This document shows positions 6,276 to 13,062 of a stretch of DNA of 64,000 bases, piece after piece. The DNA comes from Myxococcota bacterium (GTDB lineage: Bacteria; Myxococcota; XYA12-FULL-58-9; JALHOP01), in contig JALHOP010000005.1 in assembly GCA_022842935.1 (NCBI GenBank), positions 124,001 to 188,000 of the forward strand, given 5' to 3'. The notes under the pieces are model-generated. The model searched no databases and was not told the DNA's origin. It saw only the letters and a program-made list of their open reading frames with translations. Positions within the stretch are counted from its first letter, which is position 1; each line of letters begins with the position of its first letter. The translations under genes were made by a program, and so were the position numbers.

Positions 6276-6699
6276 CTAGATTCCCGAGCCCGCGCGCCCT
6301 AGAGGTACGGCACTTCCTGTTCGGATCATGCGTTTGAGTTATCGGCTTTCGGGTGCGGCGGGTGTAGCCCAAGGTTTCGTCTCGCCCTGACCGTGGGTCA
6401 GTACCTCTAGCCAGTCCGGGTTCGTGGTTTCACCAAGCCTGACGGCTAGCCGGCGTGCGCCGTGCCAAGAAGCGCCCAGCGGAGAGACCTCTCGTGCTGA
6501 CCAGCTCCAGGACGTTCAGCAATCAACCGCTGGAGCGTCGATGACGAGCCGAGTGACTCCGAGATGCGCGCCTTCAGCAAGGACATCGTTGCTCTGGTTG
6601 GGTGGCGTGGGTGTCGTTCGTCGCGGGCCTCGATGCGTGCATCCGCGGCGTTACGATCATCGATTTCGAGTCATATGCCACTTGTTGTAGGGTCGGGCC
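6276..6699. other. 424-bp intergenic region between divergent genes
   Basis: No convincing gene is seen. It separates the divergent genes starting at 6275 and 6700 and must hold both promoters. It contains a perfect 10-bp inverted repeat (listed separately). Confidence 0.5.
6299..6410. repeat. 10-bp inverted repeat, arms 102 bp apart (start to start)
   Basis: CTAGAGGTAC at 6299-6308 recurs as its reverse complement GTACCTCTAG at 6401-6410. The arms lie inside the divergent promoter region, so they could be paired regulator sites or the ends of a small relic element. Chance is possible. Confidence 0.4.
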
Positions 6700-8232
6700 G
6701 TGAAAACGCCTGTCATCGCTCTCGTGGTCTTGCAACTACCGATCGCTGCGTCGGCTGCTTCGTTCAGCCAGAGCTTCGCCTTCACCGGCGCCGAAGAGAC
6801 CTTCGTGGTCCCTCGTGGCGTCTACGTGCTCGACGTCGACGCCGTGGGTGGTCAAGGAGGAGCAGGCTTTGTTGGCCCAGGCGGGGCTGCGGCACGTGTG
6901 CGGGCGCGCTTGGCGGTCAGCCCTGGAGACCTGCTCTACGTGCGCGTCGGCGGAGCGGGCCAACCCGCCGCAGCCAGCGGCGCTTTGGGTGGCTTCAACG
7001 GTGGGGGGGACTCGGCCGGTCCTGCCGCGGGCGGTGCGGGCGGCGGCGCTTCGGATGTCCGCACCCTACCTGGTAGCGACGGTGCTACACTCACGTCGCG
7101 TTTGGTCGTCGCAGCGGGAGGCGGCGGCACGGGCTTTGGCGCAATAGCACCCAACGCCGCTGGTGGCGCCGGGGGCCTTCCGATTGGCAGCCCCGGTACC
7201 AACAATGGCACGTCTACCACCGCGTCGGGTGGCGGAGGTACAGCCAACGCTGGAGGCGCAGCTGCCATTGGCTGCACTGGCGGAGCCGGGGAGGCGGGGA
7301 GCTTCGGCCGAGGCGGCGGTGGAGATACGTACGGCGGCGGTGGCGGAGGCGGTTACTTCGGTGGGGGCGGTGGCTGCAACTTCAACCCCAACGCCGGTAG
7401 CGGCGGAGGTGGCTCGAGCTTCGTCCATGCGGGCGCTAGCGACGTCGCATACGTCAGCGGTGCCGGCGTCGCTGCACACATCACGCTCACTTGGAAACTC
7501 CCGGACGTCACGATCTCGGACGTCGTCCTCATCGAAGGCTCACGCGTGGCGACCTTCACGGTAGGGCTCAGTGCCCCAGCGCCGGGTGACGGCGTGCTGT
7601 TCGATGTGCATACGGTCGATGGCACGGCGACCGCCGGCCAAGACTACGAGGCGACCGCTTTGACGGACGTCACCCTCGCCGCAGGCATGCAGCAAACGAC
7701 GATCGACGTCCCGGTGCTCGACGATGATGAAAGCGAAGGGCAGGAGACCTTCCAGCTCGTCATCGACAACGTACGAGGCGCCGCGACGCTCGACGGTGTC
7801 GGACAGGCGACCGTCGTCAACGACGACGTTCTCCCGCTGGTAAGCCTCTTCGCACCGCACGAGGTGGTCATCGATCAGGATACGCAGGTCACGATAGGCT
7901 TCGAGGTGGTGTCCAGCGACGAGGTGACCGTGTCCGCGCTCACCTCGAATACGGATGTCGTGGCGACCGACGGTCTCGCTCTCGGCGGCGATGGAGCGCT
8001 GCGGACCTTGCACATCACGCCGGTGGCACATGCTCATGGCGAGACGACCATCGGGCTCTCGGCCGGCAATGCGACAGCCAGCATGCTGTTGACGGTGCTA
8101 CCACGCGAAGCCACGGAGCCGGACGAGCAACCGGGCGATGATAGCGGCTGCAGCGCTACACATCCGAGCGCAGCGCCAGTCGCGTTCGTCATGTTCGTTT
8201 GCCTACTGCGTCGGATTCGTCGCCGCAATTGA
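6700..8232 (+). CDS. Surface protein: glycine-rich domain, Calx-beta domain, MYXO-CTERM-like tail
   Basis: A 510-aa protein from GTG 6700, with signal peptide MKTPVIALVVLQLPIAASA. Residues about 25-265 are very glycine-rich (repeats such as GGGGGGGYFGGGGG) and resemble the ALK-receptor-type glycine-rich fold, with alternating beta strands. Residues about 270-370 form a Calx-beta domain (VDGTATAGQDYEA, DDESEGQETFQLVI), a Ca-binding adhesion module. A further beta-rich region follows. The C-terminus has Gly-Cys, then a hydrophobic segment (VAFVMFVCLL) and a basic end RRIRRRN. This arrangement is typical of myxobacterial MYXO-CTERM sorting signals, so the protein is probably processed and displayed on the cell surface. 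Confidence 0.75.
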   Translation: MKTPVIALVVLQLPIAASAASFSQSFAFTGAEETFVVPRGVYVLDVDAVGGQGGAGFVGPGGAAARVRARLAVSPGDLLYVRVGGAGQPAAASGALGGFNGGGDSAGPAAGGAGGGASDVRTLPGSDGATLTSRLVVAAGGGGTGFGAIAPNAAGGAGGLPIGSPGTNNGTSTTASGGGGTANAGGAAAIGCTGGAGEAGSFGRGGGGDTYGGGGGGGYFGGGGGCNFNPNAGSGGGGSSFVHAGASDVAYVSGAGVAAHITLTWKLPDVTISDVVLIEGSRVATFTVGLSAPAPGDGVLFDVHTVDGTATAGQDYEATALTDVTLAAGMQQTTIDVPVLDDDESEGQETFQLVIDNVRGAATLDGVGQATVVNDDVLPLVSLFAPHEVVIDQDTQVTIGFEVVSSDEVTVSALTSNTDVVATDGLALGGDGALRTLHITPVAHAHGETTIGLSAGNATASMLLTVLPREATEPDEQPGDDSGCSATHPSAAPVAFVMFVCLLRRIRRRN

Positions 8233-9059: not shown

Positions 9060-9638
9060 ATGAGCAACTACCTCATTTCCCGCGCCGTGCCTGGGCCGGC
9101 CTCGTGCGTGCTGGAAACCGTGGAGAACCTGCCTGAACCGCTGGACCTCATCAAGGGCGTGAAGCTGGCAAAGGGCTGGCCCGACAACGTCGAGTTCCAC
9201 ATGGACCCCAACTTCCCCAAGGCCGTGCAGCTGTCCGACTGGATCCAGAACCTGCCCAATGGGCTGGTCGCCTCGCGCAAGCTCAAGGAGTTCATCGAAG
9301 CCGAGAAGCCCAAGGACGTGGAGTACCTGCCCGTGCGCATCGTCGATCACAAGGGCAAGGTCGCGAGCGCTGACTACTTCCTGCTCAACCCCTACACGCT
9401 TCAGGACGCGCTTGACCGTCAACAGTCGGTGATCGACTGGAATCCGATCGACCCCGATCTGATCGCGGCCTGTACCGTGATGGTGTTCGACGAAAAGAAG
9501 ATCGATCCCAGGGCCACGTTGTTCCGCCTGAAGCACTACCCCAGCAAGGTCGTCTTCCACCGCGACCTGGCCGCCAAGATCAAGGCCGCCGGTTTCACTG
9601 GCATCAAATTCATCGAGCTGGCCGACGTGGAGTACTGA
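9060..9638 (+). CDS. Imm11-type (DUF1629) immunity protein
   Basis: A 192-aa protein. The C-terminal half follows the Imm11/DUF1629 pattern: DVEYLPVRIVDHKGK, ADYFLLNPY, CTVMVFDEKKIDP, a central LFRLKHYPSKVV, and the end AAGFTGIKFIELADVEY. In polymorphic toxin systems such proteins protect the producer from a cognate contact-dependent or secreted toxin, usually encoded just upstream. A good ribosome binding site (GGAGGGACACC before ATG 9060) is present. No toxin gene is visible here, so this is an orphan immunity gene or its partner was lost. The next gene downstream is a frameshifted relic. Confidence 0.75.
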   Translation: MSNYLISRAVPGPASCVLETVENLPEPLDLIKGVKLAKGWPDNVEFHMDPNFPKAVQLSDWIQNLPNGLVASRKLKEFIEAEKPKDVEYLPVRIVDHKGKVASADYFLLNPYTLQDALDRQQSVIDWNPIDPDLIAACTVMVFDEKKIDPRATLFRLKHYPSKVVFHRDLAAKIKAAGFTGIKFIELADVEY

Positions 9639-9647
9639 GCGACGACC

Positions 9648-9900
9648 ATGAGCCTGGCCGAAACCCGCTCCGAGCTGATCGAGTCACTGCAGTGTCAATA
9701 CTGCTGCGCCCGATCGCCATCGCCAAGGCCGGCGTCGAACTCGAAGAGGCCGCCCTCTGGTTTGAAGGCCTGGCCGCCTGCAACCTGCTGCTGTACGCCG
9801 ACACCGACCGGTTTTATGAGAACCTGCGCGCGATGAGAACGTCATGCTCTTCGATCGCCGACCGCGCGCGATCCTGCGCGATGGTGTCGGCGCGGTGCTG
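9648..9900 (+). pseudogene. Frameshifted remnant of a second immunity-island gene
   Basis: ATG 9648 opens MSLAETRSELIESLQ. The sense then moves to another frame near 9692 and continues as ILLRPIAIAKAGVELEEAAL, WFEGLAACNLLLYADTDRFY and ENL before decaying again near 9830. One or two lost bases around 9693 explain the first break. The start is 9 bp after the Imm11-type stop, so it was the next gene of that operon. It may be another immunity protein (the WFEGLAACNLLL stretch reminds me of Imm49-like proteins), but this is uncertain. Confidence 0.55.
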
Positions 9901-9938
9901 CACCAGGGCCTCCGAAGGCGGCATCGAACCCTTCGCTG

Positions 9939-10457
9939 TTGCGATACGGCAGTGCTTTCATCGCGGCGCTCTGCGAAGAGGTCGCCAAGCTCAAGATCAC
10001 GCTGCGCGATGACAACGTGGTCGAGCTGCCCGTCGCCGTATTTGGTACAGCCCTTGGTCCAGTCTCCGCTACAGCGGAATCACCCTCGCCGACTCAGCCG
10101 AAGTTGCAAGCGAATCTAACGAGGAACGAGAGAGGCGCGAACGGGATTCGAAAGCGAATCACGGATGCGGAGCCTCTTGGGGTCTCTTCGGGTGACGTAG
10201 AGAAATCGCGGACACGCGAGGGCTTGGGCGACGTCGCGAGTGGGGTCTTGCGGGGCGACGTCGGGTCCGACTGTACCGAATTCACCGAAACCTCGGATGA
10301 GCCTGTTCTGACGCGTTCGCCGACGGGTGGCCCGTCGCGCACACCGGTCGAGGATCTGCTCGATCGCGTCGCGCGTCGCCCGTACGAAGCGCCGCAGCTG
10401 GTGACCTTCGACATTGCGGAACTCGCTGTCGATGCGATGCGGAGGCTGCGGTCATGA
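9939..10457 (+). CDS. Hybrid reading frame spanning the left attachment site
   Basis: The frame reads CEEVAKLKITLRDDNVVELP, then through the tRNA-derived 18 bp, and goes on for about 100 more residues to VARRPYEAPQLVTFDIAELA and a stop at 10457. The first part is homologous, codon for codon, to 12821-13008. The second part begins exactly where the two copies part at 10151. This is what is expected if an integrase gene carries attP inside its 3' end, as known for the myxophage Mx8 integrase gene, so that integration swaps C-termini. No catalytic domain (R..HxxR..Y) is visible upstream, so only the tail remains. Whether it is still translated is unknown; the listed start is TTG 9939. Confidence 0.4.
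   Translation: MRYGSAFIAALCEEVAKLKITLRDDNVVELPVAVFGTALGPVSATAESPSPTQPKLQANLTRNERGANGIRKRITDAEPLGVSSGDVEKSRTREGLGDVASGVLRGDVGSDCTEFTETSDEPVLTRSPTGGPSRTPVEDLLDRVARRPYEAPQLVTFDIAELAVDAMRRLRS
9964..10151 (+). repeat. Left copy of 188-bp direct repeat ending in tRNA-Cys 3' sequence
   Basis: Aligns without gaps to 12821-13008. Roughly the first 120 bp differ mainly at third codon positions; the last ~67 bp differ by a single base. The final 18 bp equal the tRNA-Cys 3' end. Confidence 0.85.
10134..10151 (+). other. Putative attL core (duplicate of tRNA-Cys 3' end)
   Basis: GGCGCGAACGGGATTCGA is identical to 12991-13008, which is the T-arm/acceptor 3' end of the tRNA-Cys gene. Duplication of a tRNA 3' end is the usual footprint of tyrosine-integrase insertion. 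Confidence 0.75.
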
Positions 10458-10496
10458 TCATCCTGACGCGGCGTGCGTAGCCGCAGGAGCCCGCAG

Positions 10497-10800
10497 ATGT
10501 CCGGTGGCCACGGTGAAAAGCAGAGCAGGCAGGAGGACACCGCGATCGCGGCGCTCCTCTAGTGCTCCACCGTACTCCAGGCGGCCGAGAAGGCGGGCTC
10601 AACGAGGCGACTCTGCGACGCTGGCTCAAGGAGCCCGGGTTCAGCGCCGCTATCGCGATGCTCGACAGCAGGTCGTGCGCCACGCCGTCACGCGCTTGCA
10701 GTCTGCGACGACCGCAGCGGTCGATACGCTTGAACGCAACATGGGCTGTGGCGCCATCGACCGAGGTCGCTGCAGCCAAGGCAGTTCAAGGCGACGGAAT
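10497..10800 (+). pseudogene. Broken phage/mobile-element helix-turn-helix protein
   Basis: ATG 10497 has an AGGAG site 8 bp upstream and begins MSGGHGEKQSRQEDTAIAAL, then meets an in-frame TAG at 10560. Pieces of the same protein follow in three frames: STVLQAAEKAG, NEATLRRWLKEPGFSAAIAM, QQVVRHAVTRLQSATTAAVD and finally APSTEVAAAKAV. Their order matches small terminase-small-subunit-like helix-turn-helix proteins found on many mobile elements. At least one nonsense and three frameshift changes make it a pseudogene. Confidence 0.65.
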
Positions 10801-11150
10801 GGTACCCCGGGGGGGGGGGCCGAGGGCCGCGTTGCCTGATAACGGCGGTTCCGTGAACTCCAGGGCGCTCGGGTTGGACAGGGTTTTGTGCCGACTAGGC
10901 ACCGCCCCGCTACACATCAACGGGCGCTGAGCGCGAGCTGACGACGAGCTGCTTGTGCGAGGCCGCTCTGGTGCTTCAGCGGGACGCTATCGGCGGCAGA
11001 GCTGTACCGTTGCGGGCAAGCGACGCAGGCCAGGCCCCGCGACGTTCTGCTGCCGCGTCATGTCGCTTGGGCCGAACGCTATGTCGAGCCACGCGATAAT
11101 GGACATGAACGACGCACATGGGGCGCCATCATCCGCCAGGAGTCAATGTT
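10801..11150. other. Non-coding relic DNA with G11 run
   Basis: About 350 bp with no supported gene, between a pseudogene and the next small ORF. It contains a run of eleven G at 10809-10819, a likely slippage or assembly-error site. Confidence 0.4.
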
Positions 11151-11570
11151 ATGCAGCTCGAACGACCAGTGGCATCGCCGAGCCCGGGACATGTGACAAC
11201 AGCCCTCACCCCGACTGAGGCCGCGGCTGCAGCCCACTTTGCGACGGTCGTGCTGCGGGAGGTTGAGCGGCACGCGTCGTCCCCGAAGCCTGACTGGGTG
11301 GACGTCGCGCACGTTACAGAACGAACATTCAGCGTTCCTTACTTCTATGGCAACGCGCAGCGGCACTTCGACGCCTCACCGCTCCACCGTGTCGAGCAAA
11401 ACGACTCAACGATGATCGCAGCGGTCAACGCAGGGCTCGCGGGTACGGGCATCAGAGTCACGCGAGGTTTCATGACCCCTGCGTGTGAGCTTGGGCATGG
11501 TGCCATCGTAGACGTTTACGCCTTACAGGTCGCCGTCAACTCCTTCGCCTTTGAACATCGCTCGTTCTAG
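11151..11570 (+). CDS. Small island protein of unknown function
   Basis: A 139-aa frame from ATG 11151, preceded by CAGGAG at a suitable distance. The sequence is balanced (TPTEAAAAAHFATVVLREVE, TFSVPYFYGNAQRHFD, DVYALQVAVNSFAFEHRSF) without signal peptide or membrane segment. I do not recognise a family. It lies among pseudogenes, so it may also be a remnant, but no internal disruption is seen. Confidence 0.4.
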   Translation: MQLERPVASPSPGHVTTALTPTEAAAAAHFATVVLREVERHASSPKPDWVDVAHVTERTFSVPYFYGNAQRHFDASPLHRVEQNDSTMIAAVNAGLAGTGIRVTRGFMTPACELGHGAIVDVYALQVAVNSFAFEHRSF

Positions 11571-11788
11571 CGGACTGCATCTCGAAGGTTGCGATGTGTT
11601 CGAGTCGGCGGCGCATGACGAGCCCTCAAAGCGAACTGCAATTGGTTGGAAGCGATCTGACGCTGCCGGACCCGCCCCGAGCGCGTCGCGCGTATCGGTG
11701 ACGCGCCGGCACCCGACCATCGTTGGCTGTCGGCAACATTACGTCCGCGAGGCCGATAACGACCCAGTGAAACCCAGAGAGGGATAGC
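11571..11788. other. Intergenic gap in the island
   Basis: About 218 bp with no supported gene. A GAGAGGG ribosome-binding-like stretch at its right end serves the next ORF. Confidence 0.35.
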
Positions 11789-12352
11789 ATGGGTCTTTTT
11801 TTCGAATCGGAGGCTGCATTTCAGGCTCGCCAGACTCGGTACGCTGCTGAGCGGTCGGCGAAGGCGCTGGAAGAGCTGGCAAGTCGACCGAGCTCGTCCT
11901 CCGTCGAAGTGAGAGAAGACCCCTTGAAGGCGCGTGCAATCGCGGTCGCGGCGATGGCCGAGGTGATCGCGCGCACTCATCCCGAGCTCGCGGCACAGGA
12001 GCTGCTCGCACAGGCGAAGCGCGCCGTGCAGGACTTGGAGAGCAAGCCAGCGCAGGCGGCCGACAGCTCCGAACATGCCGCGGCGCGAAGGCCCTCGTAT
12101 GATTTCGGTCCGACGCAAATCAGTACAGGCAGACCGAGAATCGACACGCGCCCGCCCGAACGAGTCCACCAGCGCGCGGCTGAGATCGAGCATCGGGACA
12201 CCGTCGAGCTCAGTCGAGTCTCGCGCCATGTACCGCGCTCAACCCGACCGTTGCAAGCGAACCCTTCCAGCAGGCTCGTGGATGCTCTTCGCAGCGGCGC
12301 TGGGGCGGCCATCGGTGCTGGGTTTGCGTTCGCAAGCGCCCCCATTCGGTGA
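11789..12352 (+). CDS. Island protein of unknown function, helical N-terminus
   Basis: A 187-aa frame starting MGLFFESEAAFQARQTRYAA, with GAGAGGG just upstream. Residues about 5-95 are Ala/Glu-rich and predicted helical, possibly coiled coil. The middle is polar and proline-containing. The C-terminus has a short Gly/Ala hydrophobic stretch (GAGAAIGAGFAFASAPIR). There is no signal peptide, and no family is recognised. A small structural or secreted-substrate protein are both possible. Confidence 0.5.
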   Translation: MGLFFESEAAFQARQTRYAAERSAKALEELASRPSSSSVEVREDPLKARAIAVAAMAEVIARTHPELAAQELLAQAKRAVQDLESKPAQAADSSEHAAARRPSYDFGPTQISTGRPRIDTRPPERVHQRAAEIEHRDTVELSRVSRHVPRSTRPLQANPSSRLVDALRSGAGAAIGAGFAFASAPIR

Positions 12353-12358
12353 GCCCCG

Positions 12359-12774
12359 TCACACCCATGCGTCTCCCCGCAGCCCGGTCAAAGCGGCAGG
12401 CGAATTGACGTTCACGATCGGCTTGGCGCGCGGGACGAGATGTTCGCCGCGCAGCAGTGCCTGGGCTCGTCGTTCGCCGCGGCGCAACAGTTCGCTGGCC
12501 GAGCCCGCGAGCGCCCGGTGATGGAGCGCGCAAAATGGTTCCGGTCCGGTCGGCGACACCGGGGAGCTGCTCGAGAGGTTCACAGCCAGCGTGTTCGCGA
12601 GACCGTGACGTCCGCGATTGCGAACGGCATGTCGAGCTCGCTCGCGAGCGCACGTGTTGCGTCCTCGCGCTTACCGACCAAGCCAACCTTCGCTCCGGTC
12701 GCCACCAATGAGCGCGCGGTAGCGCTGCCAATCGCACCTGTTGCTCCAAAGACCACGAAGGACGCATCACGCAT
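12359..12774 (-). pseudogene. Truncated, frameshifted short-chain dehydrogenase/reductase
   Basis: On the reverse strand from 12774, MRDASFVVFGATGAIGSATA is a clear SDR nucleotide-binding start (GATGAIG), continuing to DMPFAIADVT before a stop at 12580. A second frame (12583 to 12359) carries the later SDR-like piece PIVNVNSPAALTGLRGDAW. At least one frameshift separates them, and the catalytic YxxxK region is missing. Confidence 0.6.
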
Positions 12775-12990
12775 ACGGGGCGTTTACCACGGGTTCAGGG
12801 GGGACCACGCCTCCAATGGGCGGCGCTCCGCGAAGAGGTCGCCAAGCTCAAGATCGCTCTACGCGACGGTAACGTTGTGGAGCTGCCAGCGGTAGCGTTT
12901 GCTACATCGCTTGCTACAGTGTCCGCCACAGCGGAATCCCGATCGCCGACTCAGCCGAAGTTACAAGCGAATCTAACGAGGAACGAGAGA
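12775..12990. other. Island right end, without an intact gene
   Basis: Holds most of the right copy of the 188-bp repeat. Upstream of 12821 no similarity to the left copy is visible, so the N-terminal part of the presumed integrase has been deleted. Confidence 0.5.
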
Positions 12991-13008
12991 GGCGCGAACG
13001 GGATTCGA
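12821..13008 (+). repeat. Right copy of 188-bp direct repeat, running into tRNA-Cys
   Basis: Frame reads LREEVAKLKIALRDGNVVEL, then QPKLQANLTRNERGANGIR, entering the tRNA gene on the opposite strand. Compared with 9964-10151 the changes are mostly synonymous, indicating that the frame was under protein-level selection. The last 18 bp are the attR core. Confidence 0.85.
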
Positions 13009-13062
13009 ACCCGTGCATAACGGTTTTGCAGACCGTCCCCTTAGCCACTTGGGTATCGCGCC
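12991..13062 (-). tRNA. tRNA-Cys(GCA)
   Basis: The reverse strand reads GGCGCGATACCCAAGTGGC at the 5' end and closes with CGGGTTCGAATCCCG (T-arm) and GCGCC (acceptor). The anticodon loop CTGCAAA lies between stems ACGGT/ACCGT, giving anticodon GCA (cysteine). CCA is not encoded. It is intact, and its 3' end serves as the integration site of the island to its left. Confidence 0.92.

Follow-up and report, generated by a model that had tools for sequence, protein, structure and literature searches.

Two related elements carrying Mx8-type integrases have probably inserted one after the other at a tRNA-Cys gene in the DNA analysed here, a stretch of 64,000 nucleotides from a Myxococcota bacterium that we call the window, and the integrase gene of each would have run through its own attachment site, attP. 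The locus is a fossil and ordinary in kind, and it matters chiefly as a pointer to a pattern in the family. The part worth following is that an integrase tail swapped on insertion is seemingly the rule among Mx8-type elements.

The evidence begins with a direct repeat of 190 bp (9963-10152 and 12820-13009), whose copies align without gaps at 86% identity. A search of the whole genome (6.28 Mb) returned these two copies only. The first-pass annotation had described the pair as gap-free copies of 188 bp, and they are real at the slightly greater length. Both copies end with the last 21 bp, rather than 18 bp, of a tRNA-Cys (gca) gene that is intact at 12989-13062 on the minus strand and is the sole tRNA of the window according to ARAGORN; its 3' end is the target site, on the attL side. 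The right core (12989-13009, no strand assigned) extends from the tRNA-Cys 3' end through the T-loop and is identical to the left core (10132-10152, likewise unstranded), a displaced 3' fragment of the same gene. An intact tRNA with its displaced 3' fragment as a direct repeat, the feature of a tDNA island, is thus present at tRNA-Cys. Nine prophages of the Mx8-type family have cores that extend just as far as the left core, from 3' end to T-loop. By chance, 0.09 matches to the core are expected in the window at three or fewer mismatches, and a 19-bp piece of it has no further copy in the genome at two or fewer.

The 27 base differences between the repeat copies fall on codon positions 1, 2 and 3 as 4, 7 and 16 (chi-square p = 0.013), and they change 20 codons, nine synonymously and eleven non-synonymously. 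The differences had been called mainly synonymous; the third-position bias bears out part of this claim, but the wording is too strong because 11 of the 20 changed codons are non-synonymous. The coding signal in the repeat is present and moderate. The differences are also unevenly spread: 25 lie in the first 122 bp and 2 in the remaining 68 bp (Fisher p = 5e-4). The near-identity that had been noted through the tRNA 3' end stretches about 47 bp past the tRNA end.

When the 164-residue shared frame was searched in 58 relatives, the single foreign match came from a genome of the same order (G004), where it sits within a 520-residue tyrosine recombinase whose frame crosses tRNA-SeC. Against 50,697 phage records, the top match of this integrase was Mx8 IntP (38% identity over 80% of the query). 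Both window copies, searched in a collection of genomes from 84,980 species, found two more integrases, L129 and L130, in Myxococcales fen MAGs, with 52% identity to the window copies across 42 residues; the L130 frame enters tRNA-Glu, and L129 has masked bases there. A family profile of 18 members matched copy B (E = 2.4e-6) and copy A (E = 3.5e-5) in a local search of six frames, and copy B again in the whole genome (E = 0.0022). Judged from these sequence similarities, the shared frame encodes the C-terminus of a tyrosine recombinase; its relatives are full-length Myxococcota integrases, a family of which phage Mx8 IntP is the characterised member. The fragment itself has no Pfam or PHROGs match, and its non-synonymous codon differences outnumber the synonymous ones, both of which would suit a frame from an unrelated protein or a non-coding stretch. 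Such an origin is scarcely credible given that the profile of family integrases recovers copies A and B in the correct frame and that their nearest homologues are full-length integrases in the same position relative to a tRNA.

These results support the interpretation of the first-pass annotation, which had proposed a Mx8-like C-terminus encoded across attP with tRNA-Cys as the target. The homologues are integrases that run into tRNA genes, with Mx8 IntP as the best phage match, and the repeat occurs solely at the tRNA. As had been anticipated, the homologues are tyrosine recombinases beside tRNAs (tRNA-SeC in G004, tRNA-Glu in L130), but no intact integrase homologue was found anywhere at tRNA-Cys itself. 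In the fen MAG elements the integrase is immediately preceded by a zinc-finger/helix-turn-helix protein (L130:5919-6644), which by eye resembles an MqsA/YgiT-type antitoxin.

At tRNA-Cys, only the last ~64 codons of the integrase are left. Copy B (12817-13020, plus strand), identified by the family profile as a C-terminal remnant of a Mx8-type tyrosine integrase, reaches 13017 within tRNA-Cys and ends with the tRNA-encoded residues TRA and a TAA stop at 13018-13020. From the position of its catalytic tyrosine, which we placed by a conserved tryptophan at 12817, to the end of the tRNA there are 187 nt; the tyrosine itself is not preserved. Similarity of copy B upstream of this tryptophan (KD...TH) was disregarded, as an antisense dehydrogenase-like frame begins in the same stretch. 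That frame, at about 12600-12774 on the minus strand and directly before copy B, is broken and by eye shows the start of a short-chain dehydrogenase (VVFGATGAIG). Copy A (9963-10151, plus strand), the second C-terminal remnant recovered by the profile, has a tyrosine codon in the right register amid degraded surroundings. Both remnants start at almost the same codon. An integrase body with an R-H-R-Y catalytic domain is absent from the window and from the 120 kb to its left, and the family profile found no close family integrase elsewhere in the genome. The window copies are inactive remnants of a family member, not a working one. The same genome encodes a second, distant tyrosine recombinase in a 388-residue frame (L140, G000:C2:584430-585191).

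Across the phylum, relatives of the integrase are present in 56 of 195 genomes. Of the loci that we examined, 26 have an antisense tRNA or tmRNA gene downstream, and in 23 of these the integrase frame enters that gene, 149-227 nt past the catalytic tyrosine. The exceptions are two loci whose frames stop 51 (L019) and 29 nt (L023) before the tRNA or tmRNA and one whose frame is broken (L028). The targets comprise tRNA-Sec, Glu, Leu, Lys, Asp, Gln, Val and Gly and the tmRNA, which is read into by the integrases of L008, L009, L013, L017 and L020; the window adds tRNA-Cys. This distribution suggests that read-through into the tRNA with tail replacement is the norm in a family that occurs in many myxobacterial genomes and uses no fewer than nine kinds of tRNA/tmRNA target, ten if tRNA-Cys is counted.

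We then looked beyond the core. Nine prophages have a distal core upstream of the integrase, at a distance of 8.7 to 52 kb, and when the DNA is joined there virtually, as in the circular form, the integrase frame continues for 78-117 codons. The openness of the joined frames was rejected as evidence, as each would arise in GC-rich DNA with a chance probability of 0.22-0.54, so that only tail homology counts. A viral scan with the G004 integrase alone gave no match; viral contigs were searched with an 18-row family alignment instead, which worked, and the free-phage contigs L105 and L107 have long uninterrupted tails. A profile built from these two tails only ranks the distal-core frame of L011 first of 9504 (E = 6e-5). 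Among the same number of frames, the Mx8 tail alone places the distal-core frame of L022 first (8e-12) and that of L015 second (5.5e-6). For the tails of the remaining six prophages, the support consists of position and openness only. Mx8 has a core sequence identical to the tRNA-Asp core in L015 and L022, two loci that read this core in different frames; the tRNA-encoded residues are therefore not conserved. The small, prophage-like element of L011 (L045, 8.7 kb) encodes a serine resolvase and the large subunit of a terminase beside the separated integrase tail, and looks like a satellite or a remnant.

For Mx8 itself, the literature agrees with what the first-pass annotation had stated: attP lies inside int (PMC6070905, PMC4701971). 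On insertion int acquires a different 3' end with altered specificity, which the review PMC6070905 calls a "molecular switch"; according to PMC4701971, 112 residues give way to 13, with lower activity. The tail swap on insertion is thus known for Mx8 and apparently family-wide. In a predicted structure of full-length Mx8 IntP (mean pLDDT 77, 14 sequences), the chain is folded to about residue 382 and disordered from 383 to 461, a region that takes in the core-encoded residues 412-421; two helices follow (464-477 and 481-510) and form a helical hairpin, modelled with moderate confidence. According to this model, the core falls in a disordered linker ahead of the C-terminal helical hairpin, so that insertion would separate the helical module from the enzyme.

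Taken to the window, this arrangement would work as follows. Two related elements with a Mx8-type integrase would have inserted sequentially at the tRNA-Cys 3' end, with crossover in the T-loop region. Before the core, the integrase gene would encode the catalytic domain and a flexible linker, with the core as part of the linker; after the core, it would encode the C-terminal helical module. With insertion the core would become the breakpoint of the gene: the catalytic part would stay by the tRNA and gain a tRNA-encoded end (here TRA and a stop), and the C-terminal module would be stranded at the far end of the element until excision rejoined the two. We infer that loss of the tail regulates the integrase.

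The element between the two cores (10153-12988, about 2.8 kb, no strand assigned) is decayed. It lacks an integrase body, its ORFs have no Pfam match above the cut-off and no relatives among the fetched loci, and a tblastx comparison of the window element with relatives gave scattered, noise-like matches only. After the left core, a frame on the plus strand is open from 10152 to about 10454-10457, in phase with the integrase frame and where a tail is expected. It spans 101 codons, with a chance probability of 0.27 in the window and 0.16 locally. A profile of 16 family tails did not detect it, and a search of 193 genomes with it gave weak, scattered matches only. Because no homologue was found, it is from position only that 10152-10454 would be the integrase tail of the inner element. 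Further along, a frameshifted frame at 10500-10930 (plus strand) looks by eye like a phage helix-turn-helix protein (LNEATLRRWLKEPGFSAA); it has no Pfam match and no relative among the fetched loci.

Just outside the left copy lies an Imm11-family immunity gene (9060-9638, plus strand; PF07791, E = 1.5e-14), followed by a frameshifted remnant at about 9640-9950, possibly a polymorphic-toxin immunity cluster bordering the repeats. Farther left, at 6691-8232 (plus strand), is a predicted surface protein with a glycine-rich ALK/LTK-type domain and a Calx-beta domain.

Four genomes of the same order (G001, G003, G004 and G006) have a tRNA-Cys gene without the repeat, and its right-hand neighbours are the same as those in the window from 13902 on. 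These are empty sites, for which the first-pass annotation had suggested a search in relatives. The G004 gene whose end lies 290 bp left of tRNA-Cys has its homologue at window coordinates -30301 to -28474, and more genes there match in the same order; about 41 kb therefore lies between tRNA-Cys and its old neighbour in the window genome. This interval holds genes for a cytochrome bd oxidase, a glycosyltransferase, a SpoU methylase, a kinase and others. Since they look chromosomal, we did not adopt the ~41 kb as a single island; a large island and a rearrangement are equally likely.

An integrase end with its core, found twice in the same direction, is the trace that successive insertion of two elements at one tRNA leaves, and we infer that the window originated in this way. 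Repeated integration had been claimed at the outset; the two integrase ends with cores agree with it, but a third core, which should delimit the outer element on its far side, was not found. None exists genome-wide at two or fewer mismatches or in the contig at five or fewer, and a search around the break in synteny (about -28.5 kb), again at five or fewer, also failed. Successive insertion is also without an account of the near-identical start codon in both remnants. The chromosomal look of the genes in the ~41 kb, the window tail's lack of detectable homology to other tails and the lack of an intact integrase at any tRNA-Cys weigh against our reading too. The main rival is a single Mx8-type insertion at tRNA-Cys, with the 190-bp piece copied later by segmental duplication or recombination: it fits the presence of just two copies and the absence of a third core, copies that begin within a few codons of each other and both lack the integrase body, and the near-identity of the 68 bp beside the core. 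Later copying nonetheless seems unlikely, given a 14% divergence whose third-position bias (p = 0.013) points to divergence as coding sequence prior to truncation, and given that the left copy stops exactly at the T-loop, the boundary seen in independent family prophages.

The trimming of the copies to nearly the same piece, the almost identical 68 bp at the crossover and the Imm11 gene immediately outside the left copy could also mean that the 190-bp units are retained attachment cassettes, in which the integrase 3' end is kept for the integrase binding arms that it holds and a non-autonomous element is moved in trans by the integrase of another element. This is very improbable: the genome has one pair only and no close family integrase to act in trans, and no isolated piece of this kind was matched in a search of the other 194 genomes of the phylum, where the tRNA part alone gave matches. 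Two successive insertions remain our preferred reading.

For the family as a whole, we lean towards the view that the 3' end of the tRNA or tmRNA gene is a removable joint that encodes the linker, and that the tail of the enzyme, which differs between the free and the inserted state, registers integration. If this is true, Mx8 is one case of a general switch and not a curiosity. The old question of what the Mx8 tail does becomes testable by comparison, and a rule follows for locating where such an island ends on the far side: search for the integrase tail. According to PMC4701971, very few integrases have attP inside their own gene, and self-disrupting integrases are said to be exclusive to archaea in a review of archaeal recombinases (PMC8371274); in the open-licence literature we found no paper that presents the pattern as general in myxobacteria.

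One of the closest known systems is Mx8. Its IntP and the window remnants belong to the same integrase family, and both have a core made of a tRNA 3' end including the T-loop (tRNA-Asp for Mx8); as in the family, the Mx8 integrase frame crosses the core and insertion swaps the C-terminus (PMC6070905, PMC4701971). Unlike Mx8, the window has tRNA-Cys as its target, remnants without a catalytic domain, and a post-core frame that is not detectably homologous to the Mx8 tail. The window locus also resembles tandem tDNA islands of the Islander type, which are bounded by an intact tRNA on one side and by a 3' fragment on the opposite side; arrays of such islands at a single tRNA are known (PMC4383910). 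Islander provides for attP-crossing integrases and names Mx8 and SSV (PMC4383910), but the window locus falls outside its definition because no integrase gene remains. The archaeal suicidal integrases of the SSV type likewise have attP within the integrase gene, and insertion splits the gene into parts (PMC8371274). The two types differ in what insertion cuts: in the SSV type the catalytic domain is severed from the N-terminal part, whereas a Mx8-type enzyme keeps its catalytic part intact because the core lies past the catalytic tyrosine.
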